Assembly (NCBI GenBank): GCA_020060385.1
Contig: JAGVAH010000117.1
Span: forward strand, 1-64,000
DNA: 64,000 nt
DNA from: Syntrophobacterales bacterium
GTDB taxonomy: Bacteria > Desulfobacterota > Desulfobaccia > Desulfobaccales > 0-14-0-80-60-11
Reading direction: 5' to 3'
In this document: in pieces, positions 9,885-48,926 of the stretch
Layout of the letters: each line of letters starts with the position of its first letter
How positions within the stretch are numbered: position 1 is the first letter of the stretch
Translations under genes and position numbers: made by a program
The notes under the pieces: generated by a model
Databases searched by the model: none
What the model was told of the DNA's origin: nothing
What the model saw: only the letters and a program-made list of their open reading frames with translations

Positions 9885-9967
9885 GGAATAATGTTGCAGG
9901 GAAGGCGGGGCAGCAGCGGCTCCCACGCCCTCCCCTCAAACTCCCCTCCCTACCCTCTTGACAAAAA

Positions 9968-9999
9968 GGGGCGGACCCGCAGGTCCGCCCCCTCTTTTT
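9968..9999 (+). terminator. Intrinsic terminator after the radical SAM gene
   Basis: A 10-bp GC stem, GGGGCGGACC (9968-9977) and GGTCCGCCCC (9982-9991), has a 4-base loop followed by CTCTTTTT. The left side carries AAAAA, so it may stop transcription from both convergent genes. Confidence 0.8.
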
Positions 10000-10066
10000 C
10001 CCAATCAAGGGCTCTGAAAGCAAATAAACCCAAGATACTAGATAGTTGACCTCACCGCATTACCTG

Positions 10067-10188
10067 ATACCATTTCGCAATCAAAAGACATTGAACTGTA
10101 GGGGCGAATCTTGTATTCGCCCTGTGCGGGTGGGCGAACACCAGGTTCGCCCCGACAAGAAAATTGCCGTTAGATTGCGACTTGGTAT
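10067..10188. mobile_element. 122-bp MITE-like repeat, family A copy 1
   Basis: The ends ATACCATTTCGCAATC (10067-10082) and GATTGCGACTTGGTAT (10173-10188) form 16-bp terminal inverted repeats with two mismatches. The centre folds into two arms rich in GGGGCGAA/TTCGCCCC. A second copy of exactly 122 bp lies inverted at 38901-39022 and a degenerate one at 48671-48785. There is no coding capacity. Confidence 0.75.
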
Positions 10189-10214
10189 GATTTAGGGAAG
10201 GGCGCCAGAACCGG

Positions 10215-11654
10215 TCATTCCTCCAGCTCCCCGGCCAGAGGCGGCGCCAAACCGAAGCGCTTGATTTTGCGGCGCAGGGTGTTCTTGTCAATCCCCAATT
10301 CCCGGGCCGTGGCCAGACGCCGCCATTGGTGGCGTTCCAGGGCCTCCCAGAGCACCCGTTTCTCCTGCTCCTGGAGTGTCAAAGCGTTGGTGGCCGGCCC
10401 CAGGTGGTGCTCCCCTTGCAGGTGGTCCGGCAGATGCTCGGGGAGGATTTCCCCCTGGGGGCAGAGGATGAAGGCGTGTTCGATGGCGTTTTCCAGTTCC
10501 CGGATGTTCCCCGGCCAGTCATGGCCCAGGAAAATGGCCAGGGTCTCCTGGTTCAGCCCCTGGATATTTTTATTCTGCAACCTGTTGAAGCGGTCGATAT
10601 AGTGGGCGGCCAACAGGGGGATGTCTTCCTTGCGTTCCGTCAGCAGGGGCAGTTGGAGCTTCACCACATTGATGCGGTAGAAGAGGTCTTTGCGAAAATC
10701 CCCGGCCGCCACCAGCTGGGCCAGGTCCTTATTGGTGGCGGTGACGATGCGCACGTCGGCCTTGACGCTCTTGGATGATCCCAGGGGCGTGTAGGCCCGC
10801 TCTTCCAGGACCCGGAGCAGCCGGGCCTGCAGGGCCGGGGAGATATCCCCGCATTCATCCAGGAAGAGGGTGCCCCCCTCCGCGGCCGCGAAGCGGCCCT
10901 GGCGATCCCGCCGGGCATCGGTAAACGCGCCCGCGGTGTGGCCGAAGAGTTCGGATTCCAGCAGGGTGTCGGGCAGGGCCCCGCAGTTCACGGCCACGAA
11001 GGGGCCCCGGGAGCGGGGGCTCAGGTTGTGCAAGGCCCGGGCCACCAGCTCCTTGCCGGTGCCGCTTTCCCCCTGGATCAAGACGGTGCTGTCGGTGCGG
11101 GCGATTTGGGGCAGGAGCTCGAAGATCCTCTGCATCAAGGGGGACTTGGAGATGATGTCTCCCAGGCGATGCTGGCGGGTTTCCCGGTGCAGCTCCTCCG
11201 CCGGGCTCAAATCCCGGAAGGTTTCCACCCCGCCGATGACCTGCCCCTGGTCATCCCGCAGCAAGGCGGTGCTGACGCTGATGGGCAGTTCTTTGCCGTC
11301 GGCCCGGTGGATTCTCACTAACCGGTTGATCACCGACTCCCCCGTCTCCATTGTATGCCCCAAAAGGCAGGCGGATTCACAAAGGCTGGTCCGCAAGACA
11401 TCGCAGCAGGGACGGCCCAAGGCCGCGGCCGCGGGAATCCCGGTAATCTCCTGGGCCGCCCGGTTGAAAAAGGTGATGCGCCAGTCGGGGTCCACCGTGA
11501 ACACGCCATCCGCGATGCTATCCAGGATAATGGTGTTTTGGGGCAGGAGTTCAACTTGGTCGGCGGCAAACTTAGGCGCCTGTTTACTCCGGTTGATACA
11601 AAGTTTTGATCCGGATTTGGGGGAGGGATTGCCGGGCACTCTTATATTTCCCAA
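10215..11654 (-). CDS. PAS-domain sigma54-dependent regulator, variant GAFTDA
   Basis: A 479-residue enhancer-binding protein: N-terminal PAS domain (about 40-160), AAA+ domain with Walker A GESGTGKE (about 191-198) and Walker B LFLDECGD (about 262-269), and a C-terminal Fis-type HTH (about 445-470). The PAS domain holds cysteines in the pattern C-x8-C-x3-C (preceded by an extra Cys), which might sense redox state or bind metal. The sigma54-contact loop reads GAFTDA instead of GAFTGA. There is no receiver domain, so the signal is probably a ligand or redox cue. It is divergent from the RND efflux operon and is a close paralogue of the regulator at 18286-19719; the shared target is inferred to be the efflux operon. 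Confidence 0.9.
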   Translation of the reverse strand: MGNIRVPGNPSPKSGSKLCINRSKQAPKFAADQVELLPQNTIILDSIADGVFTVDPDWRITFFNRAAQEITGIPAAAALGRPCCDVLRTSLCESACLLGHTMETGESVINRLVRIHRADGKELPISVSTALLRDDQGQVIGGVETFRDLSPAEELHRETRQHRLGDIISKSPLMQRIFELLPQIARTDSTVLIQGESGTGKELVARALHNLSPRSRGPFVAVNCGALPDTLLESELFGHTAGAFTDARRDRQGRFAAAEGGTLFLDECGDISPALQARLLRVLEERAYTPLGSSKSVKADVRIVTATNKDLAQLVAAGDFRKDLFYRINVVKLQLPLLTERKEDIPLLAAHYIDRFNRLQNKNIQGLNQETLAIFLGHDWPGNIRELENAIEHAFILCPQGEILPEHLPDHLQGEHHLGPATNALTLQEQEKRVLWEALERHQWRRLATARELGIDKNTLRRKIKRFGLAPPLAGELEE

Positions 11655-11866
11655 GGTCTGGCCGAAATCTAATCTTTTAATTATATCAAATCTTCGTTCA
11701 CATGAATACTATTCTGTACCCACAACCTTTTACGCCAGGGTCGGCAGAATTAAATCCTTTAGGACTTTCTGTGGCGCCCCCAGGACTATAATCCAGGTTG
11801 AATTATGGCCGGAAGCGAAGTAAGGTGGCACGGAAAAGCGACAGTAACTTTCACAGAGAAGAACAC

Positions 11867-11888
11867 CTCCGGAAACCCCTTTCCGGAG
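11867..11888 (+). promoter_or_regulatory. Hairpin/palindrome in the efflux operon leader
   Basis: CTCCGGAAA (11867-11875) and TTTCCGGAG (11880-11888) are perfect 9-bp arms around CCCC, 22 bases before the ATG of the outer membrane factor. It could be a regulator site or an RNA hairpin that affects translation. No T run follows. Confidence 0.45.
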
Positions 11889-11910
11889 CTGCCAGGACTA
11901 GGGAGACCCC

Positions 11911-13506
11911 ATGAGGCGCGAGCATGTCTGTTGTGTCTTACTGGTTTCAGTCCTCTTCATTGCCGGGTGCTTCAAAGTGGGTCCGGACTTTACCCCCCCC
12001 CAGGCCAAGGTGGCACCAGCCTGGCAGGATGCCGGAGAGCGGCAGGTACAAACCGCGTCCAGGGAACACCGGGACTGGTGGCGGGCCTTCAAAGATCCCG
12101 CCCTGGACCGTCTCATCGACACCGCTTACCGGGAAAATCTGAATCTGCGCCGCGCCGGGGTGCGGGTCCTGGAAGCCCGGGCCGAATTGGGCGTGGCCGT
12201 GGGCGAATTATTTCCCCAAACCCAACAGGCCTTTGGCTCCGTGGAGAAGTACCATTATAGCAAACATGCCCCCCTGGCCGCGTTCAACCAGAATTTAAGA
12301 TATTTTCAGTCCGAAGTGGGTCTCCAGGCCAGTTGGGAACTGGACTTTTGGGGGAAATTCCGCCGGGCCGTGGAATCCGCGGACGCCAGTCTGGTGGCCG
12401 CGGTGGCCGATTACGACGCCACCCTGGTGAGCCTCACCGGCGACGTGGCCGCTTCCTATATCCTCATCCGCACCCTGGAAAAGCGCCTGGACATTGCCCG
12501 GTAAAACGTGGCCACCCAAAAGGAGAGCCTGAAGATCGCCGAGGCCAAGTTCCAGGGCGGCACGGCCACCCAGCGGGACGTGGAGCAGGCCAAGACCCAA
12601 TTGTTCAACACCCAGGCCACCATTCCGGCCCTGGAAATCCAACTCCGCCAAGCCAAGAATGCCCTCAGCGTCCTTCTGGGGATGCCCCCCAACCAGTTGG
12701 CCGACCTCCTGGCCGGAGAAGGGTCCATTCCCGCGCCCCCGCCCCAGGTGGCGGTGGGCATCCCCGCGGACCTGCTGCGCCGGCGGCCGGATATCCGCGC
12801 CGCTCAAGCCCAGGCCGCGGCCCAATGCGCCCAGATCGGTGTAGCCAAGGCCGAACTTTTCCCGGCCTTCAGCCTCATCGGCACCTTTAGCTTCCAGTCC
12901 AGCGACGTGGGCAAATTCGCCCTGGGGCAGATGTTCAACTGGAGCAGCCGCAATGCCCAGGCCGGCCCTTCCTTTCAATGGAATCTGTTGAACTACGGGC
13001 GGCTCACCAACCAGGTGCGGGTCCAGGACGCCCGCTTCCAGCAGCTGCTCATCGGTTATCAGAATGCGGTCCTCAAGGCCCAGCAGGAGGTGGAGGACTC
13101 TTTGACGGCCTTCCTGCGCTCCCAGGTGCGGGCCCGGATGCTGGGGGAGAGCACGGCCGCGGCCCGGCGCTCCTTAGACCTCTCGGTCCTCCAATACCAG
13201 GGAGGCACCACCGATTTCACCACCGTGCTCACCGCCCAACAAGCCCTCTTAAACGAGCAGGACAACCTGGCCATCACCCTGGGGGACATCTCCCGTAATC
13301 TGGTGGGCGTCTACCGGGCCCTGGGGGGCGGCTGGCAACTCCGGGAGGGCCAGGATTTTATCCCGGAGCCGGTGCGGGCGGAGATGGCCCAACGCACGAA
13401 TTGGGGGGGATTGCTGGCTCCGGCCAACTATGCCCTCTCCGCACCGGGGACCGGCCAGGGGGTGAAAGGACCAGAGGCCCCGCCCCCCGCGGGAAAAAAA
13501 GATTGA
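11911..13506 (+). pseudogene. RND efflux outer membrane factor (NodT/OprM type), interrupted by an in-frame TAA
   Basis: One continuous frame of 531 codons codes for a TolC-like outer membrane lipoprotein that forms the exit duct of a tripartite pump. The signal peptide ends in the lipobox IAGC, and the mature protein begins CFKVGPDFTPP, typical of the family. A single TAA at 12502-12504, between LDIAR and NVATQKESL, breaks the frame; homology continues on both sides without gap or shift, so one base change from CAA or GAA would explain it. A GTG directly after (12508) could restart the second part, but this would lack export signals. It is therefore inactive, read through, or a sequencing error. 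The downstream adaptor and pump are intact. Confidence 0.85.
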
Positions 13507-18285: not shown

Positions 18286-19719
18286 ATGCCGGAAGAGTCA
18301 AAAAGAGTTTCCCCAGCAAAGCCGAAATCTGGACGCCGCCCGCGGCCCGAGCCCGGTCTTCCTGTGGCCCCGGCCAACACCCCGCCCCCCAACGCCATCA
18401 TTCTGGATAGCATGGCCGACGGGGTTTTCACCGTGGACCTGGAGCAGCGCATTACTTTCTTCAACCGGGCGGCCCAGGAAATCACCGGGGTGCCTCGGGA
18501 GGCAGCCCTGGGCCGTCCCTGCTCCGAGGTGTTTCGGACCAGCTTTTGTGGCCCGGCCTGCGCCTTGCGGCACACCTTGGAGACAGGCCAGCCGGTGGCC
18601 AACCGGCCCACGGAAATTAGCAGGGCCGATGGCCAACGGATCCTCATCGGCGTCAGCACCGCCCCCCTGAAGGACGGGGAGGGCCGCATCATCGGCGGGG
18701 TGGAGACCTTCCGGGACCTGCGCCCGGCCCCTGAACTGCGGGGCCCCGCCTTCAATCAGAACCGGCTGGGGGGCCTCATTTCCAAATCGCCCCTGATGCA
18801 GAAGATATTCGAACGCCTGCCGGCCATCGCCCGGGCCGGCAGCACCGTCTTGATCCAGGGGGAAAGCGGCACCGGCAAAGAGGTGGTGGCCCGGGCCTTG
18901 CATATCTTGAGCCCCCGCTCCCCAGGCCCTTTTGTGGTGGCCAATTGCGGGGCGTTGCCTGACGCCTTGCTGGAATCCGAGCTCTTCGGCCACGTTGCCG
19001 GCGCGTTTGCGGATGCCCCCCGGGAACGCCGGGGACGCTTCGCCCTGGCCGCGGGCGGCACCTTATTTCTCAACGAAATCGGCGAGATTTCCCCGGCCCT
19101 GCAGGTGCGGCTGCTCCGGGTCCTGGAAGAGCACGCCTACACCCCCTTGGGGGCGCCCCGGGGCCTCAAAGCCGACGTGCGCCTGGTGACTTCCGCCTCT
19201 CAGGACTTAGGGCGGCTGGTGGAGGCCGGGGCCTTCCGCAGGGACCTCTATTACCGCCTCAGCGTCATCAAATTAAGGATGCCGAACCTGGCCGAACGCC
19301 GGGAAGACATCACTTTTCTGGCCCAACACTTCATCGCCAGCTTCAATAAACGGCAGAACAAGAGGATTGAAGGGCTGAGCGGCGACACCCTGGCCATTTT
19401 CCTGGGCCACGACTGGCCCGGCAATGTCCGGGAACTGGAAAGCGCCATCGAGCGGGCCTTCATCGTCTGCTCCCAAGGCCTGATCCTGCCCCGGCATCTG
19501 CCGGACCACTTCCACCCCCAAAATTCCACGGTCTCCAGCCGCGCCCCGGGGTTGAGTTTGAAGGAGCAGGAAAAGCGCCTCCTCCGGGAGGCTCTGGAGC
19601 GCCACCAGTGGCGCCGCCTGGCCACGGCCCGGGAGCTGGGGATTGACAAGAACACCCTGCGCCGCAAGATGGAACGTTTCGGCCTGAAGCCGCCGGGTCA
19701 AGGGGAGCCGGCAAGTTAA
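18286..19719 (+). CDS. PAS-domain sigma54-type regulator with altered GAFTGA loop and Walker B
   Basis: A 477-residue paralogue of the regulator at 10215-11654, with the same PAS-AAA+-Fis HTH plan and the same PAS cysteines (C-x8-C-x3-C). The start at 18286 is chosen because it matches the paralogue's N-terminal length; upstream ATGs (18166, 18256) extend it without homology. Walker A GESGTGKE is intact (about 193-200). The sigma54 loop reads GAFADA rather than GAFTGA, and Walker B reads LFLNEIGE, with Asn for the Mg-coordinating Asp. These two changes may impair ATP hydrolysis or sigma54 activation, so it may act as a DNA-binding modulator of its paralogue. The HTH is nearly identical in both. 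Confidence 0.88.
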   Translation: MPEESKRVSPAKPKSGRRPRPEPGLPVAPANTPPPNAIILDSMADGVFTVDLEQRITFFNRAAQEITGVPREAALGRPCSEVFRTSFCGPACALRHTLETGQPVANRPTEISRADGQRILIGVSTAPLKDGEGRIIGGVETFRDLRPAPELRGPAFNQNRLGGLISKSPLMQKIFERLPAIARAGSTVLIQGESGTGKEVVARALHILSPRSPGPFVVANCGALPDALLESELFGHVAGAFADAPRERRGRFALAAGGTLFLNEIGEISPALQVRLLRVLEEHAYTPLGAPRGLKADVRLVTSASQDLGRLVEAGAFRRDLYYRLSVIKLRMPNLAERREDITFLAQHFIASFNKRQNKRIEGLSGDTLAIFLGHDWPGNVRELESAIERAFIVCSQGLILPRHLPDHFHPQNSTVSSRAPGLSLKEQEKRLLREALERHQWRRLATARELGIDKNTLRRKMERFGLKPPGQGEPAS

Positions 19720-20331: not shown

Positions 20332-23300
20332 ATGGAAAGCCAACAGCCAAAGATCGGCGCGGTAATGGTAGTGGGCGGCGGCATCGCCGGGATGCAGGCC
20401 AGCCTGGACGCAGCCGCGGCCGGCTACAAAGTCTATCTGGTGGAACGGGACATCTCCATCGGCGGGGTCATGGCCCAACTGGACAAGACCTTCCCCACCA
20501 ACGATTGTTCCACCTGTCTCATCTCCCCCAAACTCATCGAGGTGGCCCGGCATCCGGATATCGAGATCCTGACCCAGGCCGAAATCGAGAAACTGGAAGG
20601 GGAAGCAGGCCGCTTCTCCGTCACTCTCAAACGGGAGCCCCGCTATATCGACGCTTCCCGGTGCAATGCCTGCGGCGCCTGCGCCGAGGCCTGCCCGGTC
20701 TCCCTGGCCTCCAGCTTCGATGAAGGGCTGGGGCAGCGGCCCGCGGCCTACCGCCATTTTCCCCAGGCCGTGCCCTCCACCTTTGCCATCAAGAAATTCG
20801 ACCGGGCCCCCTGCGTCCGGGCCTGTCCGGCCAACTTGAGCGCCCAGGGCTACGTGCAGCTCATCAAGGCCGGCAAGTATGAAGAATCCTTAAAAATCAT
20901 CATGGAGCGACTGCCTCTGCCCGGCACCATCGGCCGCATCTGCCCCCATCCCTGCGAGACCGACTGCCGCCGCCGGGAGGTGGACGAGCCGGTGGCTATC
21001 TGCAGTCTGAAACGCTTCGCCGCGGACCAGGCGGATTGGGGCAGTCTGCCGGTGCCGGAGATTCCTCAGAAAAACCAGAGCGTGGCCATCATCGGCGCCG
21101 GGCCCGCGGGTTTGAGCTGCGCCTACCACCTGGCCCTGCAAGGCTATCCGGTGGTCATCTTCGAGGCCGCGCCCGCGGCCGGGGGCTGGCTGCGCTACGG
21201 CATCCCGGCATACCGCCTGCCCCGGGAGATTCTGCAACGGGAAGTGGATTATCTTAAGCGCCTGGGGGTGGAGATCCGTTATCAGACGCCCATCGGCCCG
21301 GGCCGCACCATCAACGACCTCCTCACCCGGGACGGGTTCGCCGCGGTCTTCCTCGGCGTAGGCGCCCAGGACTCGGTGCGCCTGCCGGTCCCGGGCACAG
21401 ATGCCCGGGGCGTCCTCTGGGGGGTGGAATACCTCCGGGAGGTCAATTCCGGGGGCGCGGCCGACCTCCAAGGCCGGAGGGTGGTGGTGGTGGGCGGCGG
21501 CAATGTGGCCATGGACGTGGCCCGGGTGGCCCGGCGCCAGGGGGCCGCAGAGGTGACCATGGTCGCCCTGGAATCCCCCGAGGAATTGCCCGCCTCCCCC
21601 TGGGAAGTGGAGGAGGCCAAGGTGGAAGGGATCCGTATCCTCCACCGTTGGGGCGTCAAACAGATTCTGGCCCCGGCAGGAAAGGTCACCGGCATCGAAC
21701 TCCAGGCCGTGGAGAGGGTCTTTGACGCGACGGGCCGCTTTTCCCCCACATACTTTGAAAATCAAACCACCAGCCGGGAGGCCGACGTGGTCATCCTGGC
21801 GGTGGGCCAGAAGACCAATCTTAAGTTCATCGAGCCCGGGGACGGCATCCAGCTCAGCCCCCGGGGCCTCATTGAGGCGGACCCGGAGACCCTGGCCACC
21901 TCCCGGGAGGGCGTCTTTGCCGGGGGCGACGTGGTCACCGGACCCTGGATCGCCATCGGCGCGGTGGCCGCGGGGCGGGAGGCTGCCCTCTCCATCGACC
22001 GCTATCTCCAGGGGTTGGACCTCAAGGCGGACCGGGAGCCCCCCCTGCGACCCATCAAAGACGGGGAATGGTCGCCCATTCCGGACCAGCTACCCAAGGC
22101 GGGCCGGGCGAAGATGCCGGAGCTCCCCCGGGAGGAATGGGGGCAGAATTTTCAGGAACTCAACCTGGGCTTCACCGCGGATCAAGCCCGGGCCGAGGCG
22201 GAGCGCTGCCTCAATTGCGGGGGCTGCTCCGAATGCCTCCAGTGTGTGGAGGCCTGCCAGGCCGGGGCCATCGACCACCACCAGGCGCCGCGGACTGAAA
22301 CCCTGGAGGTGGGGGCCCTGATCCTGGCCCCGGGCTTCAGGACCTTTGACGCCCGCACCAAGGGGGAATACGGCTACGGCCGCTACCCCAACGTCATTAC
22401 CTCCCTGGAGTTTGAGCGGCTCCTTTCGGCCACCGGCCCCTGCGCCGGCCATGTGCAGCGCCCCAGCGACGGCCGGGACCCCAAAAAGATCGCCTGGATC
22501 CAGTGCGTCGGCTCCCGGGACGCGTCCGTGGGCCGGGAATATTGCTCTTACGTCTGCTGCATGTACGCGGCCAAGCAGGCCATCATCGCCAAGGAACACG
22601 ACCCCGGGGTGGAGCCCGCCATCTTTTTCATCGACTTTAGGGCCCAGGGCAAGGGTTTCGACCGTTATTACGAGCGGGCCCGGGACGTCCACGGGGTGCG
22701 CCTCGTCCGGGCCATGATTTCCCGGGTGACCCAAAATCCCAGTACCCAGAACCTGGAGTTGACTTTCGTCGACGCCGACAACCGGGTGCAGACGGAAGAG
22801 TTCGATATGGTGGTGCTCTCCGTGGGTCTGAATCCCCATCCCGCCACCAAAAAACTGGCGGAGGTCTGTGACATCGCCACCGACAAGTGGGGGTTTGTGG
22901 CCAGCCCCCCCTTGAAAATGGTGGAGACCAGCCGGGAAGGCATCCTCACCTGCGGCGTCTTCCAGGCACCCAAGGACATTCCGGAAACCGTGGGCCAGGC
23001 CTCCGCGACCGCGGGCGCGGCCGCCATGCTCCTGGCCGAGGCCCGGGGCACTTTGCTCTCCAAGGCCGAATATCCCCCGGAACGGGACATAACTCAGGAA
23101 GAGCCCCGCATCGGCGTCTTCGTCTGCCATTGCGGCATCAACATCGCCGGGGTGGTGGACGTGGCCCGGGTAAGCGACTATGCCCGGACGCTGCCGGGCG
23201 TGGTCTATGCCGACCACTTGACCTTCACCTGCGCCACCGACTCCCTGGAGAAGATGCGCCAGGTGATCGAGGAGCAGGGCCTCAACCGGGTGGTGGTGGC

Positions 23301-24798
23301 CTCCTGCAGCCCCCGGACCCACGAGCCCCTCTTCCAGGACAATCTGCGCAAGGCCGGCCTCAACAAGTACCTCTTTGAAATGGCCAACATCCGGGACCAG
23401 GACTCCTGGGTGCACCAGGGCAAACACGAGTTGTCCACAGCCAAGGCTCAGGAGTTGGTGAAGATGGCGGTGGCCCGGGCGGCCGTCCTGGAGCCCTTGT
23501 CCGAGTTGCCCTTCAAGGTAAACCAACGGGCTCTGGTGCTGGGTGGCGACCTGGCGGGCTTAGCGGCGGCCCTGACCCTTGCCAACGCTGGCTACGGGGT
23601 CTATCTCCCGGATATTCAGGAACGCTTCGGCGGCAGCCTGGCCCATAAGAAGTATTACACCCTGGAGGGCCATGCTATCCAGCCTTTTATGCAGGAATTA
23701 GTGACCCAGGCAGAGATGCATCCTAAAATCCGCTGGTGGCCTGAAGCCCGGATTACCAGTTTCTCCGGGCACGTGGGGAAATTCCGGTGCGACCTGGAGT
23801 CTCCCCGGGGCAAATGGTCGGTGCAATTCGGGGCCGTGGTCATCGCCACCGGCGCCAGGGAATACCGGCCCTGGGAATATCTCTATGGAGAACACCCCAG
23901 GGTTCTCACCCAGTTGGAGTTGGAAAACCGACTGGTGGACCAACCCGAGAGCCTGGGCGAGGCTCCTACCGTGGTAATGATCCAATGCGTGGGCTCCAGG
24001 GAGCCGGAGCATCCCTACTGCAGCCGGGTCTGTTGCGGCGAAGCCATCAAGAACGCCATCAAAATCAAGGAACTCCGCCCCCAGGCCCAGGTATTCATAC
24101 TTTACCGGGACATCCGCACTTACGGCCTGAAAGAGATTTATTATAAAAAGGCCCGGGACCTGGGGGTGCGCTTTATCCGTTTTGAGCCGGAGGCCCAGCC
24201 GGAAGTGGCGGCCCCGGGCGAGGGCCTGGAAATTACCGTCTTGGACCAGAACCTCAAGAGCCCCATCAAGATAGCCGCCGACTACCTGGCCCTGTCCGCG
24301 GCCATCCGGCCCCATCCGGCCTCCCAGGAGATTGCCAGATTGTTCAAGCTCCCCCCGGACGCGGACGGCTTTTTCATGGAGGCCCACTTAAAATTAAGAC
24401 CCCTGGATTTCGCCTCTGCCGGGCTTTTCCTCTGCGGCTTGGCCCACGGCCCCAAGTTTCTGGATGAAAGCATCGCCCAGGCCCAGGGGGCCGCGGCCCG
24501 GGCCATGGGCATCCTGGCCCAGAAGGAGATGTTCGTGGGGGGCGCGGTGGCCCGGGTCGATCCCCGCAAGTGCGCCATCTGCCTCACCTGCATGCGCACC
24601 TGCCCCTATGGGGTGCCCCACGTGGACCAGGGGGAAGGGGTCGTCAATATCGACCCCGCAGCCTGCCAGGGCTGCGGCAACTGCGCCAGCGCCTGTCCCC
24701 GGAAGGCCATCGAAGTGATGCACCACCGGGATAAGCAGTTTGTGGCCAAGATCAGCGCCCTGGAAGTGGAGGAGGTCGAGGATCAGGCGGCCAGTTAA
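20332..24798 (+). CDS. Giant HdrA with inserted GltD/NfnB-like module and second HdrA unit
   Basis: A 1488-residue flavo-iron-sulfur protein. Order: HdrA FAD domain (GGGIAG about 14-19; C59-x2-C62 in NDCSTC), a [4Fe-4S] motif (about 110-121), then a GltD/NfnB-like NAD(P)H oxidoreductase (about 160-600; CPHPCETDC, first Rossmann GAGPAG near 256, second GGGNVAMD near 389), then the rest of HdrA (Cys cluster about 625-648; QCVGSRD ... YCSYVCC about 725-745). A second HdrA-like unit follows (VCHCGINIAG about 931; FAD motif LGGDLAGLAA about 1070; second QCVGSRE/VCC) and two [4Fe-4S] motifs near 1414-1460. HdrA is the flavin-based electron-bifurcating subunit of heterodisulfide reductase. The inserted module suggests NAD(P)H as a partner. 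It heads the MetFV cluster. Confidence 0.9.
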   Translation: MESQQPKIGAVMVVGGGIAGMQASLDAAAAGYKVYLVERDISIGGVMAQLDKTFPTNDCSTCLISPKLIEVARHPDIEILTQAEIEKLEGEAGRFSVTLKREPRYIDASRCNACGACAEACPVSLASSFDEGLGQRPAAYRHFPQAVPSTFAIKKFDRAPCVRACPANLSAQGYVQLIKAGKYEESLKIIMERLPLPGTIGRICPHPCETDCRRREVDEPVAICSLKRFAADQADWGSLPVPEIPQKNQSVAIIGAGPAGLSCAYHLALQGYPVVIFEAAPAAGGWLRYGIPAYRLPREILQREVDYLKRLGVEIRYQTPIGPGRTINDLLTRDGFAAVFLGVGAQDSVRLPVPGTDARGVLWGVEYLREVNSGGAADLQGRRVVVVGGGNVAMDVARVARRQGAAEVTMVALESPEELPASPWEVEEAKVEGIRILHRWGVKQILAPAGKVTGIELQAVERVFDATGRFSPTYFENQTTSREADVVILAVGQKTNLKFIEPGDGIQLSPRGLIEADPETLATSREGVFAGGDVVTGPWIAIGAVAAGREAALSIDRYLQGLDLKADREPPLRPIKDGEWSPIPDQLPKAGRAKMPELPREEWGQNFQELNLGFTADQARAEAERCLNCGGCSECLQCVEACQAGAIDHHQAPRTETLEVGALILAPGFRTFDARTKGEYGYGRYPNVITSLEFERLLSATGPCAGHVQRPSDGRDPKKIAWIQCVGSRDASVGREYCSYVCCMYAAKQAIIAKEHDPGVEPAIFFIDFRAQGKGFDRYYERARDVHGVRLVRAMISRVTQNPSTQNLELTFVDADNRVQTEEFDMVVLSVGLNPHPATKKLAEVCDIATDKWGFVASPPLKMVETSREGILTCGVFQAPKDIPETVGQASATAGAAAMLLAEARGTLLSKAEYPPERDITQEEPRIGVFVCHCGINIAGVVDVARVSDYARTLPGVVYADHLTFTCATDSLEKMRQVIEEQGLNRVVVASCSPRTHEPLFQDNLRKAGLNKYLFEMANIRDQDSWVHQGKHELSTAKAQELVKMAVARAAVLEPLSELPFKVNQRALVLGGDLAGLAAALTLANAGYGVYLPDIQERFGGSLAHKKYYTLEGHAIQPFMQELVTQAEMHPKIRWWPEARITSFSGHVGKFRCDLESPRGKWSVQFGAVVIATGAREYRPWEYLYGEHPRVLTQLELENRLVDQPESLGEAPTVVMIQCVGSREPEHPYCSRVCCGEAIKNAIKIKELRPQAQVFILYRDIRTYGLKEIYYKKARDLGVRFIRFEPEAQPEVAAPGEGLEITVLDQNLKSPIKIAADYLALSAAIRPHPASQEIARLFKLPPDADGFFMEAHLKLRPLDFASAGLFLCGLAHGPKFLDESIAQAQGAAARAMGILAQKEMFVGGAVARVDPRKCAICLTCMRTCPYGVPHVDQGEGVVNIDPAACQGCGNCASACPRKAIEVMHHRDKQFVAKISALEVEEVEDQAAS

Positions 24799-24860: not shown

Positions 24861-24998
24861 GATACCTTTGCGGAAGTCTTTTAGTTTGTCATTCTGAACG
24901 GAGCGTAGCGGAGTGAAGAATCTAGGCATGCCCAGCGCTAGATTCTTCGGTCGCTCCGCTCCCTCAGAATGACAAGAAAAGGGATTTTCGCAAACTTC
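24861..24998. mobile_element. GTCATTCTGA palindromic repeat, family B copy 1
   Basis: The core runs from GTCATTCTGAACGGAGCG (24888) to the complementary TCAGAATGAC (ends 24973), with internal GAAGAATCT/AGATTCTTC arms. Outer ends GATACCTTTGCGGAAGTC and its partial complement near 24998 extend the palindrome. Copies at 30469, 48784 and 51274 make it an interspersed non-coding repeat. Confidence 0.75.
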
Positions 24999-25033: not shown

Positions 25034-25492
25034 ATGGAGTTTCAACCTAAAATCCTGGCCCTGGTGTGCACCTATTGCACTTACACCGCCGCGGATATGG
25101 CCGGTTCGGCCCGGATGCAGTATCCCGCCACCGTGCGCATCGTCAAATATCTGTGCACCGGCCGGATTGACCTCATCCACATCCTCAAAGCCTTTGAAGC
25201 CGGGGCCGACGCGGTCATGGTCAGCGGCTGCGAAGCGGGCAGCTGCCATTTCCTGGAAGGTAACCTCCGGGCCCGGGAGCGGGTGGAATACGCCCAGAAA
25301 TTACTGGCAGAGGTGGGCCTGGGGGGCCGTCTGGAGATGTTTGAGGTGGCAGCCTCCGACGCCCCCAAATGGGTGGCTGCAGTCAAGGAAATGACCCAGC
25401 GGGTGGAGGCCCTGGGACCCAGCCCCCTGCGCCGGGGCAGGCATCTCCATCCCGAAGTGGTGGAACAATTGGAGAATATGGTGCAATCATGA
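25034..25492 (+). CDS. mvhD: MvhD/HdrD-type iron-sulfur electron-transfer subunit
   Basis: A 152-residue MvhD family protein, the small [2Fe-2S] subunit that passes electrons between HdrA and partner dehydrogenases. The cysteines expected for the cluster are present: C12-x2-C15 (VCTYCTYTAAD), C42 in KYLCTGRID, and the C-x4-C pair in VSGCEAGSCHF. It opens about 235 bases after the giant HdrA gene, across a palindromic repeat, and overlaps metV by ATGA. In Moorella the metVF locus also carries mvhD and hdrA, which supports the same coupling here. Confidence 0.9.
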   Translation: MEFQPKILALVCTYCTYTAADMAGSARMQYPATVRIVKYLCTGRIDLIHILKAFEAGADAVMVSGCEAGSCHFLEGNLRARERVEYAQKLLAEVGLGGRLEMFEVAASDAPKWVAAVKEMTQRVEALGPSPLRRGRHLHPEVVEQLENMVQS

Positions 25493-26169
25493 TCATTGCC
25501 GAACGGAAGCCCTTTGCCGAAATCAAGGCCATGGTGGCTCCTTACAAGAAGATCCTCATCATCGGCTGCGGCACTTGCGTGGCCGTGTGCCTGGCCGGGG
25601 GTGAAAAAGAGGTGGGGCTCCTGGCCTCCCAGTTGAAACTGGCCCTGGGGCTGGAAGACAAGCGCCTGGAAATCGGGGAAATCACGGTGGAGCGCCAGTG
25701 CGACCTGGAATTCCTGCGGCCCTTGTGTGATTTCACCGCGGACTACGAGGCCATCATCTCCATGGCCTGCGGCGCCGGGGTGCAGTATCTCAAGCAACTA
25801 TGCTACCTGCAGCCCATTTTCCCCGGCGTCAACACCAGCTTCATCGGCGTCAACAACGAACCGGGCTACTACACCGAGCGCTGCCGGGCCTGCAATCACT
25901 GCTATCTGGGGCTCACCGGCGGCATCTGCCCGGTGACCATGTGCCCCAAGGGCCTGCTCAACGGCCCCTGCGGCGGCACCATCCAGGGCCGCTGCGAGGC
26001 TGACCCGGAGAAGGAGTGCGCCTGGAGCAAAATCTACCACCGCCTGGAACTGGAGGGGAGTCTGGACAAAATGCGGCGGATCATGCCTTTGCACCCCCAC
26101 GACCGGAGCACCACCCCGGGAACGGTAATCCACCCTGCCTTTAAGAGGAGATACGGCGCCCATGAGTAA
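25489..26169 (+). CDS. metV: MetV-type methylenetetrahydrofolate reductase C-terminal domain protein
   Basis: A 226-residue protein with the zinc/iron-sulfur domain known from MetV of acetogens. It has an N-terminal GCGTCVAVC motif (about 22-30), a Rossmann-like centre with a CGAG motif, and a C-terminal cluster of many cysteines (CRACNHCY ... GICPVTMCPKG ... GPCGG ... GRCEAD ... EC). MetV binds MetF and passes electrons to it from the HdrA-MvhD module. The start at 25489 overlaps the mvhD stop, and its own stop overlaps metF by eight bases, so mvhD-metV-metF are translationally coupled in a 1:1:1 manner. Confidence 0.9.
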   Translation: MIIAERKPFAEIKAMVAPYKKILIIGCGTCVAVCLAGGEKEVGLLASQLKLALGLEDKRLEIGEITVERQCDLEFLRPLCDFTADYEAIISMACGAGVQYLKQLCYLQPIFPGVNTSFIGVNNEPGYYTERCRACNHCYLGLTGGICPVTMCPKGLLNGPCGGTIQGRCEADPEKECAWSKIYHRLELEGSLDKMRRIMPLHPHDRSTTPGTVIHPAFKRRYGAHE

Positions 26170-27058
26170 GCTCCAGAAGACGTTGGCAGGCGGCGCCTTC
26201 ACGGTGGTGGTGGAACTTAAGCCCCCCAAGGGCACCCAAGTGGCGGAGATGCTGGCGCCAGTGGGCGCGCTGCAAGACCGGGTGGCCGCGTTCGCGCTGC
26301 CGGACAACGAACACGCCCGCATGCGCCTGGCCCCCTGGGCCGCGGCCCGTCTGGTCAAAGACGCGGGCGCCGAACCCCTGGTCAACCTCACCTGCCGGGA
26401 CCGCAACCGCCTGGCCCTGGAAAGCGATCTATTGGGGGCCGCGGCCCTGGGTCTGGAAAACCTCCTGCTGGTGAGCGGCGACTATGTCACCCTGGGGGAC
26501 CACCCCCAGGCCAAACCGGTGTATGACGCCGACTCGGTGCAGCTCCTGCAAATCGTCCAGGGGTTAATGGCGGGGCAGGACAGCGCCGGTAACCCCTTAA
26601 AGGGCAACCCCGTGTTTTTCCCGGGCGCGGTGGTCATCCCGGAGGCCGACCCCCTGGCGCCCCAGCTCCTCAAATTCGACAAGAAGGTGGCGGCCGGGGC
26701 CCAGTTTTTTGTCACCCCTCCCGTCTTTGACCTGGAGAGATTCCGCCAGTTTAAGGAGCATATGCCCTCCCACCCGGTCAAACTTTTGGCCGGCATCAAG
26801 GTCCTGGGCGCGGATGAGGTGGCCCAGGCGGCTGCGGGCCAGTGGCGCAAGGTCTATTCCCTGCCCCCGGACCTGCTGGCCGAGTTATCGGGGAAGGAAG
26901 CCGAGGAAGTCCTGGCCCTGGGCGCGGCCCAAGCCGGCCGTTTATTGAAACAGATCAAGGATGAAAAGCTGGCGGACGGCGTCTATCTCAAGGCCAAAGG
27001 CCGGACGGACTTGATGATGCGAGTCCTGGAAGCAGCAGGTTTGCAACACAAGGGGTGA
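26162..27058 (+). CDS. metF: Methylenetetrahydrofolate reductase
   Basis: A 298-residue MetF TIM barrel with FAD. It interconverts methylene- and methyl-tetrahydrofolate in the methyl branch of the Wood-Ljungdahl pathway. Family landmarks are the opening VVVELKPPKG (catalytic Glu), LTCRDRNR near 79-86, the LLLVSGDYV segment before the flavin-binding region, and the FFVTPPVFDLERF stretch. It lacks an NADH-binding partner domain, as expected of MetF that depends on MetV. In a sulfate reducer it may work in the oxidative direction during acetate or methyl-group oxidation. A purine/pyrimidine-rich gap of 112 bases separates it from the next gene. Confidence 0.92.
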   Translation: MSKLQKTLAGGAFTVVVELKPPKGTQVAEMLAPVGALQDRVAAFALPDNEHARMRLAPWAAARLVKDAGAEPLVNLTCRDRNRLALESDLLGAAALGLENLLLVSGDYVTLGDHPQAKPVYDADSVQLLQIVQGLMAGQDSAGNPLKGNPVFFPGAVVIPEADPLAPQLLKFDKKVAAGAQFFVTPPVFDLERFRQFKEHMPSHPVKLLAGIKVLGADEVAQAAAGQWRKVYSLPPDLLAELSGKEAEEVLALGAAQAGRLLKQIKDEKLADGVYLKAKGRTDLMMRVLEAAGLQHKG

Positions 27059-27170: not shown

Positions 27171-28430
27171 ATGAATAACCAAACCAGATACCCCGTAGTC
27201 GTCCTCGGCGGCGGCATCGCCGGGATTGCGGCTGCTTTGGAGCTGACCCGCCTGGGTCATGAGGTGGCCCTGGTGGAAAAGACCCCCTTTTTCGGGGGCC
27301 GGGCGGCCCACCTGTGCTGCAAGGCCACCGATGTCTGCCAGAAATGCGGCGCCTGCCTGGTGCAGGAGCGCCTCAAGGCCCTGTTCCAGGAGCCCCGCAT
27401 CAGCCTTTACCCCCAGACCGAATTGCTGGAGAGTTCCCGGCAGAACGGCCTTTTCCACCTGCGCCTGCAGCAGCAGCCCCTGGTGATCAACCCGGAGCGC
27501 TGCGTGGACTGCGGCCTCTGCCAGGAGGAATGTCCCGCGGCCACCCAGGGGGCCATCATAACCACCAGCGTCACCCAGAATCACCCCCGGTACGCGGTGG
27601 ACCCCGCAGCCTGCCTCTATTTTCAGGACGGCTCCTGCCGGGTCTGCCAGCAGATCTGTCCCCCCACGGCCCGGGCCATCGATCTGGAGCAGCCGGAGAA
27701 AACCATGGATCTGGCGGCAGAGGCGGTTATCGTGGCTACGGGCTACCGCCCCGGGGACCCGGCCTGCCGGTCCCATTACGGCTACGGCCGGCACCCCCAG
27801 ATTCTCAGCGGGGTGGAACTGGAAGAGCGCCTCAAAAACGGCACCGGGCTGGTGGGGCCTGACAGGGAGCCGCCCCGGCGGGTGGCCTTCATCCAGTGCG
27901 TGGGCAGCCGGGACCTGCAACATCCTTATTGCTCCCAGGTCTGCTGCGGCTATACCCTGCGGCTGGCCCGTCTTCTGAAGCACCGGCAGCCGGAGGCGGA
28001 GATCACCACCTTCTATATGGACCTGCAAAACACCGGCCGGGACGCCCCCCGGCTGCAAGCCGAGGCCCACCGGGAAATCAAGGTGGTCCGGGCCTTGCCG
28101 GGGGACCTGCGGGCCGCGGCCGACGGCAGTTTGCGCCTCCGTTATCTCCACGAGGAAAACGCGGCCGCGGTGGAGGCCGCCTTCGACCTGGTGGTCTTAT
28201 CCGTGGGCATCGGCCCGGGCGCGGATAACGCCGCCTTGGCGGCCCTGCTCCAGGTGGAGCTGACTCCCGACGGCTTTTTTCAGACCTCCGGCCGGCAACA
28301 GTACACCGAAACCTCTCAACCGGGCCTCTTCCTGGCCGGCACCGCCTCAGGCCCCCGGGACATCGCCGGGTGCATCACCCAGGCCCTGGCCGCGGCCCGC
28401 CAGGCGAGCCAATACGTGCAAAAATCATGA
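27171..28430 (+). CDS. QmoA/HdrA-like FAD-iron-sulfur protein
   Basis: A 419-residue HdrA-type flavoprotein of QmoA size. It begins with a FAD Rossmann motif (GGGIAGIAAALEL, about 13-25), has C-x2-C-x2-C cysteines in DVCQKCGACLV (about 57-64), a [4Fe-4S] motif CVDCGLCQEECPA (about 110-122), a third cysteine group CRVCQQICP, and the HdrA signature QCVGSRD ... YCSQVCC (about 243-261). QmoA forms a soluble heterodimer with QmoB that feeds APS reductase. Here no aprAB or qmoC is adjacent, and the protein overlaps the QmoB-like gene by ATGA, so the pair more likely serves the MetFV complex. Confidence 0.88.
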   Translation: MNNQTRYPVVVLGGGIAGIAAALELTRLGHEVALVEKTPFFGGRAAHLCCKATDVCQKCGACLVQERLKALFQEPRISLYPQTELLESSRQNGLFHLRLQQQPLVINPERCVDCGLCQEECPAATQGAIITTSVTQNHPRYAVDPAACLYFQDGSCRVCQQICPPTARAIDLEQPEKTMDLAAEAVIVATGYRPGDPACRSHYGYGRHPQILSGVELEERLKNGTGLVGPDREPPRRVAFIQCVGSRDLQHPYCSQVCCGYTLRLARLLKHRQPEAEITTFYMDLQNTGRDAPRLQAEAHREIKVVRALPGDLRAAADGSLRLRYLHEENAAAVEAAFDLVVLSVGIGPGADNAALAALLQVELTPDGFFQTSGRQQYTETSQPGLFLAGTASGPRDIAGCITQALAAARQASQYVQKS

Positions 28431-30460
28431 GCATCGCCCGCGATCTGGATATCATTCTGGCCCACGGTCCGGAACTCTCCGCCGGCGGCCTGGACTATTA
28501 TAAACTGGGCCTCTGGGCCGCAGGCCTGCCCAAAAGCCGCATCCTGGCCTTGAACCCCGGCCTTCCCGCCGAGGAATTGGCCCAGCGGTTGCAGGCTTTC
28601 CTCTACCGTGGCTCGGAACACCGGGTGCTTCTGGCTGCCCTGGACCCCCGGCTACGGGCCCGGCAGATTATCCGCCTGCTCCTGGAGGAGATCCGCATCA
28701 ATCCCGAGTTCCTGGGAGTGCTGGACCTGCAGGAGGCCCTGGGCTATCCCGACCCCCAGGCCTGCAGCCTCAAGGCCCATAACCTCATCAGGCTGGCCGC
28801 GTCCATGCTTACCCGGGCCGAACCCATCGTCACCCGGGAACTGCCGGTGAATTCCCGGGTGCTGGTGTGGGGGGATTCCTTTGCCGCCTTGAAAGCCGCG
28901 GTGGACCTGGTTAATCAGGGATATCCGGTTTTGCAGGCCTTTCCCGGGCCTGCCTTTAAGCCCCTGATTCCCGGCGCCCCCCTCACCCAGCCGCCGGGAG
29001 AGGAACTGCTCCAGCTCACCTCCCAGGCCCAGTCCCACCCCGCCGTCCAGTTGGCCCCCCAGGCCCGGATTATAGAGGTCCAGGGGAGTGCCGGGAACTT
29101 TCAGGTGAAGCTGGAGACGGACCAGGAGGTCCGGGTAGAGACGGTGGGAGCCATGATCCTGGCGCCGGAAATGCATCTGCAGCCGGGGGAGGCCGCGGCC
29201 AGCCTCTCCCCCCACCCCCGGGTCCTGACCCAGACCAGGCTGGAGGAAATCCTGGCTGCCCCGGAGGAGGCCAAGGACCTCTTGGGCCCAGGGGCCCCCT
29301 CCCTGCAGGTGGCCTTCCTGGGGGCCGACTCCCACCCCCTGGCCCTGCGCCGGGCCCTGGACGCGGCCAAGAAATTCTTGGCCCGGGACGATTGCCGGGT
29401 GCTCCTCTTGACCCGGGACGCCAAAGTGGGAGTCCCGGAGTTGGAGGGGGAACTGGAGGAGGCCGCGTCCTCCGGCCTCATCGTCGTCAAACTGCCGGGG
29501 CTCCCGGCCCTCTCCCTGGAGGGCGACCGGCCCCGCTTTACCTTTTTTGATCCGGTGATGCACCAGGAAGAGAGCCTGGCTTGCGATCTGGTAATCCTGG
29601 ATGAGGTTTACGCCCCCGCAGCCGGCAACGCCGCCCAGGCCGAACTTCTGGGCCTCTTTCCCGGCCCCCGGGGATTCTTCCAGGTGGACAACGTCCGCCA
29701 CCTGCCGGTGATCACCAACCGCCGGGGCATCTGCGTGGCGGGCCCGGCCCGGGGCGTCATGGGGCTGGATCAGGCCCTGGCCGAAGCTGACGCCGCAGTC
29801 TCGGCAGTGCACCAGCTCCTTGGCCGGGGCCGGGCCGAGGCCCCCCAGGGCCGGGCGGTCATCGACCGGGGGCGCTGCGTTCTGTGCCTCACCTGCCACC
29901 GCCTCTGCCCCCACGGCGCGGTGAGCTGGGACAACCGGGCCATCATCAACGAATTGGCCTGCCAGGGGTGCGGCGTCTGCGCCTCCCAGTGCCCCAACGA
30001 GGCCATCCAGATCCGCAACTTCACCGACGATCAGGTGGTGGCGGCCATGGAGACCCTGGACCCCCGCCTCACCCCCAAAATCGTGGCTTTTTTATGCCAG
30101 AACTCCGCCTGGGAAGCCTATCACGGGGCTTTAAAGATGCAACAAATCGTCCTGCCCCTGGGCTTTACTCCCTTAAGGATGCCCTGCGCCGGCAAGATCG
30201 ACATCGATTACCTGCTCAAGGCCTTTACCTACGGGGCCGATGGCGTCTTGGTGCTGGGCTGCCACTCCGACAACTGCAAGTCCCAGATGGGCAATGAGCA
30301 CGCCCTGTGGCGGGTGGAGAGGGCCCGGACGATGCTGGAGGAGGCCGGGGTCGATCCCCGGCGGTTGGTCTTCAGGACTCTGGCCGCCAACGCCCCCCGG
30401 GACTTCCTGGCCGCGGTGCATCATCTGGCCGGCCTGCTGCAAGAGGTGAAGGCGGCTTAA
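28427..30460 (+). CDS. QmoB-like HdrA C-terminal/MvhD fusion, flavin motif degenerate
   Basis: A 677-residue protein built as an HdrA-like body (about 1-470), two [4Fe-4S] motifs (CVLCLTCHRLCPHG about 485-498 and CQGCGVCASQCPNE about 512-525), and a C-terminal MvhD-like domain (about 545-677). This is the QmoB plan. The Rossmann glycine motif is lost (VWGDSFAALKA where GxGxxG is expected) and the N-terminal VCHCG motif is absent, so FAD binding in the body is doubtful. In the MvhD part the first Cys pair is reduced to one (LCQNSAW), although GCHSDNC is kept. It ends the cluster and probably acts as an electron wire or scaffold with the QmoA-like partner. Confidence 0.85.
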   Translation: MSIARDLDIILAHGPELSAGGLDYYKLGLWAAGLPKSRILALNPGLPAEELAQRLQAFLYRGSEHRVLLAALDPRLRARQIIRLLLEEIRINPEFLGVLDLQEALGYPDPQACSLKAHNLIRLAASMLTRAEPIVTRELPVNSRVLVWGDSFAALKAAVDLVNQGYPVLQAFPGPAFKPLIPGAPLTQPPGEELLQLTSQAQSHPAVQLAPQARIIEVQGSAGNFQVKLETDQEVRVETVGAMILAPEMHLQPGEAAASLSPHPRVLTQTRLEEILAAPEEAKDLLGPGAPSLQVAFLGADSHPLALRRALDAAKKFLARDDCRVLLLTRDAKVGVPELEGELEEAASSGLIVVKLPGLPALSLEGDRPRFTFFDPVMHQEESLACDLVILDEVYAPAAGNAAQAELLGLFPGPRGFFQVDNVRHLPVITNRRGICVAGPARGVMGLDQALAEADAAVSAVHQLLGRGRAEAPQGRAVIDRGRCVLCLTCHRLCPHGAVSWDNRAIINELACQGCGVCASQCPNEAIQIRNFTDDQVVAAMETLDPRLTPKIVAFLCQNSAWEAYHGALKMQQIVLPLGFTPLRMPCAGKIDIDYLLKAFTYGADGVLVLGCHSDNCKSQMGNEHALWRVERARTMLEEAGVDPRRLVFRTLAANAPRDFLAAVHHLAGLLQEVKAA

Positions 30461-48785: not shown

Positions 48786-48926
48786 GACCTTTGCGAAAGT
48801 CCTTTAACTTGTCATTCTGAGGGAGCGGAGCGACCGAAGAATCTCATGGGCCTCGGAAAATGCGAGATTCTTCACTCCGCTGCGCTCCGTTCAGAATGAC
48901 AGAAAGGGACTTGCGCGGAAGTCTCG
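48784..48926. mobile_element. GTCATTCTGA palindromic repeat, family B copy 3
   Basis: The ends GAGACCTTTGCGAAAGTC and GACTTGCGCGGAAGTCTC form terminal inverted repeats. The core GTCATTCTGAGGGAGCGG and its complement TCAGAATGAC flank GAAGAATCT/GAGATTCTTC. It is almost identical in plan to the copy at 24861. Confidence 0.75.

Follow-up and report, generated by a model that had tools for sequence, protein, structure and literature searches.

The window (the whole stretch of DNA analysed, 64,000 nucleotides) contains a long open frame, hdrL, in which the first-pass annotation had seen a GltD/NfnB module splitting one HdrA, with another HdrA behind it, raising the question of whether such a chain is genuine and which electron carriers it might connect. 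The frame runs without interruption from the ATG at 20332 to the stop at 24798 and encodes 1,488 residues. Searches of Pfam, NCBIfam and the PDB by sequence gave the domain order, with HdrA and GltD profiles matching in the predicted order, and together with a structural model they confirmed the interrupted arrangement. Their matches placed 10-155 and 631-905 in a single HdrA TrxR/inserted-ferredoxin region and 157 to ~628 in GltD/NfnB. The features of the protein are the following:

20332..24798, + strand: HdrL, 1488 aa, two HdrA units and a GltD/NfnB insert (open reading frame, profile and PDB searches, model)
20353..20796, + strand: N part of HdrA unit 1, residues 8-155 (phmmer match to 5odc_A 147-290)
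20797..22215, + strand: inserted GltD/NfnB module, residues 156-628 (profile searches; model of residues 155-643 on 9bov_A)
21553..21588, + strand: nucleotide-specificity stretch VTMVALESPEEL, residues 408-419 ('ALE' against 'YRR' in solved NADP enzymes)
22216..23061, + strand: C part of HdrA unit 1, residues 629-910 (5odc_A from 292; model superposition)
23095..23526, + strand: N-terminal CHCG domain of HdrA unit 2 with one [4Fe-4S], residues 922-1065 (sequence and PDB searches)
23527..24531, + strand: TrxR/FAD domain of HdrA unit 2, residues 1066-1400 (sequence and PDB searches; alignment)
24544..24726, + strand: C-terminal 2x[4Fe-4S] ferredoxin, residues 1405-1465 (Pfam and motif search)

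The N part of unit 1 holds the FAD Rossmann fold, the NDCSTC motif (at 57) and the first half of the inserted ferredoxin (CxxCxxCxxxC at 111), and its C part provides the second half of this ferredoxin, the TrxR [4Fe-4S] ligands (725/738/742/743, in QCVGSRD/CSYVCC at 724-743), E695 and K748. The GltD/NfnB insert (PRK12771, 526 bits with a cut-off of 516) sits precisely where the inserted ferredoxin passes from its first to its second CxxCxxCxxxC motif and is predicted to bind two [4Fe-4S] clusters, FAD and NAD(H), as indicated by the GltD cysteines at 161/165 and 204/208/212 and the dinucleotide motifs GAGPAGL (255) and GGGNVAMD (388). Its last element is the CLxC ligand pair (626/629), within the motif CLNCGGCSECLQCVEAC at residues 626-642; the same pair opens NfnB, so that the module, like that of StnC, is circularly permuted with respect to NfnB. 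NDCSTC and QCVGSRD, originally given as separated by about 450 residues, are about 660 residues apart, and the insertion itself measures about 470 aa. The second HdrA is present as announced, spanning residues 922-1475 as a whole with CHCG at 932, QCVGSRE/CSRVCC at 1218-1235 and two CxxCxxCxxxC motifs at 1414-1455, but is incomplete, having the CHCG N-domain and neither NDCSTC nor the inserted ferredoxin.

An AlphaFold2 model of residues 1-908 (52-row alignment) returned a mean pLDDT of 90.5 and a pTM of 0.86. It superposed on Methanothermobacter HdrA with 424 residues across 4-905 (Z 50.8, rmsd 1.5 Å, 42% identity), and residues 155-643 fitted the GltD portion of NfnABC/StnC (9bov_A; Z 48.7, rmsd 2.0 Å), in agreement with both halves of the reading. 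The same domain order occurs in 83 full-length relatives (83-row alignment) and the junctions are unchanged in relatives 80-90% identical. Two relatives encoded by the same genome, on contigs C127 and C93, represent the empty state, their equivalent of residues 7-158 running straight into that of 622 onward without the GltD insert. It is therefore extremely improbable that a frame or assembly artefact fused separate genes, given the high-confidence model, the shared architecture of the alignment and the many junction matches within the phylum reported below; a frame artefact, which had been a concern from the start, was ruled out by the single frame and the conservation in all aligned relatives.

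Relation to described proteins and cofactor content

The window protein is an HdrL, or 'type III' HdrA, namely a single-chain HdrA/HdrA' pair with GltD within the ferredoxin of unit 1, and has the GltD insertion site, the adjacent mvhD and the Cys197/N-domain complementarity of this group. The suggestion that the architecture was novel was overturned, as it is a simple known fusion, already published (PMC2702500, PMC9430772, PMC9012536, PMC12054007) and common in anaerobes. When the junction (residues 105-240) was used as query, 153 of the 297 genomes sampled from the window's phylum matched at E <= 1e-25, and 82 of 398 in the phylum of a Eubacteriales relative also matched; the weakest of these hits may be to a lone HdrA or GltD. 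Among the matches listed, nearly all of those from the window's phylum span the junction, in open frames reaching ~1,500 aa, as do somewhat over half of those from the other phylum. HdrL is confirmed as widespread and as a link, in sulfate reducers, between C1 metabolism and the NAD pool.

A hexaheteromeric MTHFR of Moorella thermoacetica (HdrCBA-MvhD-MetVF) was reportedly described by Mock et al. in 2014. According to Kremp et al. 2022 (PMC9430772), the HdrA of M. thermoacetica comprises 1,487 aa and two TrxR domains, both with E/K and the first interrupted by GltD, and has 3 FAD, 8 [4Fe-4S], a single NAD(P)H site and an hdrCBA-mvhD-metVF operon. An NADH:benzyl viologen activity of 190 U/mg is on record for this protein. 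The window protein resembles it in length (1487/1488 aa), domain order, GltD insertion, three recognisable FAD sites, the E/K pair of each TrxR domain, the downstream mvhD-metV-metF genes and the Leu-Glu signature of a locus fitting the Moorella numbering, and differs from it in sequence (~48-50% identity), in an operon that lacks hdrCB and carries a qmoAB-like pair, and in its sulfate-reducing host. Desulfobacterium autotrophicum HRM2, likewise a sulfate reducer, has an HdrL that was reported in 2009 (PMC2702500) to fuse heterodisulfide reductase with glutamate synthase and to have mvhD behind it; there, however, HdrL1 adjoins dsrABC and HdrL1/L3 are selenoproteins, whereas the window protein has Cys62 and not Sec.

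NfnB/GltD insertions have also been described in archaeal HdrA (PMC9012536, PMC12054007), and type III HdrA and HdrA9-11 of methane-metabolising archaea carry the module at the same ferredoxin site. Without GltD, the archaeal type III proteins correspond to single HdrA classes, whereas the window protein adds a second HdrA, and its Cys197/N-domain order is opposite to that of archaeal HdrA3/4. The best structural match to the insert was the GltD of StnC/NfnABC type (8oh5, 9bov), which shares the permutation and the C-terminal CLxC but is fused to NuoG/FdhF-type domains instead of HdrA and carries YRR.

The cluster-ligand cysteines are invariant across the 83 aligned sequences, Sec at position 62 being counted as Cys. 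Motifs account for nine [4Fe-4S] clusters (two in the inserted ferredoxin, two in GltD with seven Cys, one each in the TrxR domain of unit 1, the N-domain and the TrxR domain of unit 2, and two in the C-terminal ferredoxin), so that ligand counting supports a predicted total of eight to nine; the first estimate was about eight, and eight are published for Moorella. Chadwick et al. reported that in HdrA one of the ligands of the N-domain cluster, Cys197, is contributed by the partner HdrA, and that the N-domain and Cys197 are found on different units in double HdrA proteins, Moorella's included. In the window protein Cys62, equivalent to Cys197 of 5odc in the phmmer alignment, occurs in unit 1 but not in unit 2, and the CHCG N-domain belongs to unit 2 only; the chain thus has the make-up of its own heterodimer, and Cys62 is very likely the remaining ligand of the unit 2 N-domain cluster within an internal HdrA heterodimer.

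Both units also carry the bifurcation signature (Glu356/Lys409 equivalents), as E695/K748 and E1198/K1240. The first pair is kept in all 83 sequences; the second is complete in 45 and lost in 38, including the paralogues on contigs C89 and C18 of the same genome. Of the three flavins originally counted, all three dinucleotide/flavin sites can be recognised, with the third unsure in this copy because Asp1073 breaks the second HdrA FAD motif: GxGxxG is intact in unit 1 (GGGIAG) and reads GGDLAGL in unit 2. The residue, encoded by GAC at 23548-23550, is the middle Gly of GxGxxG in 79 of the 83 sequences; it represents either a real degeneration or a base error, and may weaken FAD binding in unit 2.

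At eleven loci (L025, L104, L105, L108, L112, L120, L122, L123, L124, L126 and L133) the Cys62 position is an in-frame TGA, which probably encodes selenocysteine, and further cases are suggested by frames of about 1,418 aa in other genomes. At the two other intact hdrL copies, on contigs C89 (L034) and C18 (L036), the neighbouring mvhD likewise shows an in-frame TGA in place of a motif Cys; it is probably Sec and is not found in the window MvhD.

The hdrL operon and its predicted role

The genes around hdrL were examined next to the protein itself:

18364..19719, + strand: PAS-AAA+-Fis sigma-54 regulator (upstream, where family relatives carry hdrC-hdrB)
25034..25492, + strand: mvhD (FlpD), [2Fe-2S] electron-transfer subunit (PF02662, 5e-44; conserved behind HdrL)
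25489..26169, + strand: metV (PF12225/DUF5981, 3e-33)
26162..27058, + strand: metF, methylenetetrahydrofolate reductase (PF02219, 8e-20)
27171..28430, + strand: qmoA-like, HdrA TrxR half (NF040770, 4e-83; conserved place in the cluster)
28427..30460, + strand: qmoB-like, HdrA C half with fused MvhD domain (profile searches; conserved place in the cluster)

The expectation that HdrL would work without external Mvh proved wrong for MvhD, whose gene follows directly and is conserved there, while no MvhA or MvhG was seen beside HdrL in the window. As in Hdr-type MTHFR operons, metV and metF are present; hdrC and hdrB are absent from the operon and the window returned no CCG-family match. No qmoC follows the qmoAB-like pair in the window, and this pair is separate from the sat-aprBA-qmoABC set on contig C24. 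The order hdrL-mvhD-metV-metF-qmoA-qmoB is found at L021, L023/L081, L082, L083, L084, L086 and L088 and is conserved in six or more relatives, among them Desulfobacca acetoxidans (G214), which has a soluble HdrC-like gene after its qmoAB-like pair. Several of these relatives have hdrC-hdrB ahead of hdrL, where the window and L022 have the sigma-54 regulator. The literature searched, little of it subscription-only, yielded no paper naming a MetF-QmoAB cluster, and the HdrL-MvhD-MetVF-QmoAB cluster, conserved through the family and order with D. acetoxidans included, is regarded as new.

The composition of the complex is uncertain because hdrB and hdrC do not lie beside hdrL in the window. Total loss of HdrBC was ruled out by an hdrB/hdrC pair on contig C73, which holds the nearest hdrB homologue, 77% identical to hdrB of the intact L081 operon. 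On the same contig (L171, G000:C73 ~9735-12784) a free-standing GltD stands beside hdrC-hdrB, with upstream genes that by eye resemble 2-oxoacid:ferredoxin oxidoreductase, an arrangement that may be a split equivalent of HdrL.

The genome carries dsrA, CdhC and sat-aprBA-qmoABC (the true set, on C24), which identifies the host as a sulfate reducer with the CODH/ACS pathway; its order-mate D. acetoxidans grows by acetate oxidation and did not use H2/CO2 or formate. As an overall explanation, HdrL and MvhD are likely to constitute the NADH-linked electron part of a MetVF (methylene-THF reductase) complex, and the gene and sequence data make the assembly of HdrL with its partners quite likely. 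Electrons would be exchanged between NADH, the GltD FAD and the two GltD clusters, then between these, the two inserted-ferredoxin clusters and the bifurcating FAD of unit 1 (E695/K748), and finally between this FAD and MetV/MetF by way of unit 2, the C-terminal ferredoxin and MvhD. The inserted ferredoxin of ordinary HdrA serves free ferredoxin, and entry through GltD has also been proposed in PMC12054007; the internal NAD(P)H entry to HdrA postulated by the first-pass annotation is supported. The QmoAB-like pair would have joined the operon, with HdrB/HdrC homologues encoded elsewhere in the genome.

On account of the dsr, sat-apr-qmo and CODH/ACS genes and the acetate-oxidising order-mate, the complex probably runs in the direction of methyl-THF oxidation. 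Reductive working, in which assimilatory or acetogenic methylene-THF reduction with NADH would drive a low-potential acceptor as proposed for Moorella, would fit a gene set that is the same as in the acetogen operon, yet it is unlikely in a sulfate reducer with CODH/ACS, and D. acetoxidans, with the same cluster, oxidises acetate and makes no use of H2/CO2 or formate. In the oxidative direction the transfer of electrons from methyl-THF to NAD+ needs help, since it runs from -200 to -320 mV. Methyl-THF electrons (~-200 mV) could reach NAD+ if their transfer were coupled to reduced ferredoxin (confurcation) or, alternatively, to a higher-potential exit via QmoAB/HdrBC-like subunits.

Bifurcation or confurcation by HdrL is somewhat probable, and has to be weighed against a chain that only connects NAD(H) with MetVF (or QmoAB) as an electron relay, with the second HdrA as a structural partner. 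The loss of the second E/K pair in 38 of 83 sequences, Asp1073 in the window copy and the precedent of StnC, in which a GltD flavin of the permuted type can be non-bifurcating, all agree with a simple relay; the invariance of E695/K748 and the uphill potential of direct methyl-THF oxidation by NAD+ speak against it, and we consider it unlikely. With the MetVF-HdrL-QmoAB cluster, the disposal of methyl-THF electrons in acetate-oxidising sulfate reducers becomes directly testable.

Some further observations were made in this region. Between hdrL and mvhD lies a near-perfect hairpin (24886-24976, -55.7 kcal/mol, z -7.6). It belongs to a dispersed intergenic repeat that occurs about 40 times in the genome, the second window copy being at 48800-48901 on the - strand. 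As the gap between the two genes is 73 bp in L021 and 236 bp in the window, the repeat was probably inserted within the operon. Two similar PAS-AAA-Fis sigma-54 regulators, at 10215-11639 (-) and 18364-19719 (+), flank RND efflux genes, and a third lies upstream of hdrL on contig C53. In a Chloroflexi sequence (L032, 5174-9051) a GltD-ferredoxin protein without HdrA directly precedes metV-metF, which suggests that GltD can serve MetVF without HdrA.

Nucleotide specificity of the GltD module

The first-pass annotation had assigned the handling of NADPH to the GltD-type module; the specificity stretch makes NADH more likely. Tyr-Arg-Arg follows the nucleotide-binding strand in five aligned solved NADP-type GltD/NfnB chains, and the window protein has Ala-Leu-Glu (VALESP) instead. 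Among the 83 sequences, YRR and Leu-Glu occur in 41 each and neither in one; two YRR copies are present in the same genome as the window HdrL and serve as a contrast. A Clostridia-type locus of the Leu-Glu type, L166, encodes 1,487 residues with E696/K750/E1204/K1246 in an hdrCBA-mvhD-metVF operon, and we infer from the published numbering and operon that it is the Moorella HdrA locus, several related loci fitting the same numbering. The Leu-Glu form is read as NADH-type because the Moorella enzyme oxidises NADH. On the basis of this motif and one characterised homologue, use of NADH rather than NADPH by the window HdrL is highly probable.

NADPH specificity of the module would accord with its membership in the GltD/NfnB family and with a GxGxxA motif, a form tied to NADP by PMC12054007, in 82 of the 83 sequences. 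This motif was discarded as a criterion for NADP or NAD (GxGxxA or GxGxxG), being uninformative here because it is found in 82/83 whatever the YRR or Leu-Glu state, and the ALE of the window in place of the YRR of the five NADP-type chains, its Leu-Glu shared with the NADH-using Moorella type and the contrasting YRR copies of the genome make NADPH specificity improbable. By eye, no link was seen between nucleotide type and MetVF neighbourhood, both types occurring with and without metVF.

Exchange of the GltD module between HdrL copies

Four HdrL paralogues in the genome mix backbones and modules, and both module types occur on several backbones. The copy on contig C53 is close to the window protein in its HdrA parts (85% in HdrA1-N, 79% in HdrA1-C, 85% in the N-domain and 75% in HdrA2), whereas its GltD FAD/NAD part is only 46% identical to the window and 77% to C18, with which its HdrA parts share 47-62% only. 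A breakpoint scan placed the best breakpoints at 152-164 and 611-614, the module edges; informative sites were C18-like in 134 of 156 cases inside 164-611 and window-like in 313 of 360 outside, with a score of 379 against a shuffle maximum of 185.

The NADH-/NADPH-type signature required one change on the GltD tree and nine on each HdrA tree. Forcing C53 together with the window clade was rejected by the GltD data (AU p 4e-90), and forcing it together with the C18 clade was rejected by the HdrA data (AU p 8e-52 and 1e-124); these were quick trees, with groups picked after the identities were seen. L100 provided a second good case (AU 6e-7, breakpoints 150-162 and ~660). The breakpoints of L097, L102 and L084 fit the module edges poorly, the AU p of L097 being borderline (0.047), and these were left out as clean swap examples.

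A module swap in C53 is thus well supported by the sequence comparisons, and its functional meaning is inferred. Independent insertions were considered less likely than swapping, as C53 is window-like in HdrA and C18-like in the module, with the edges as breakpoints. Swapping of a GltD cassette was not found in the literature searched, and that the module behaves as such a cassette between HdrL copies would be new. A broader proposal, put forward tentatively, is that recombination between HdrL paralogues exchanges the entire GltD cassette at its edges and thereby shifts the enzyme between NADH and NADPH on a retained HdrA backbone, and that the Desulfobaccales NADH form, with MetVF and a membrane-free QmoAB-like exit, would split methyl-THF electrons between NAD+ and a higher-potential acceptor. 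If the cassette proposal holds, whole-module exchange would be a means by which anaerobes redirect bifurcating enzymes to NADH or NADPH, and the window copy and its C53 backbone relative would form a natural pair for the study of cofactor choice with the rest of the protein nearly constant.

The C53 hdrL (L035, G000:C53) is split by a frameshift at eight consecutive G (~11,390) into two overlapping frames, with no mvhD called beside it, and the frameshift may reflect a pseudogene or an assembly error.
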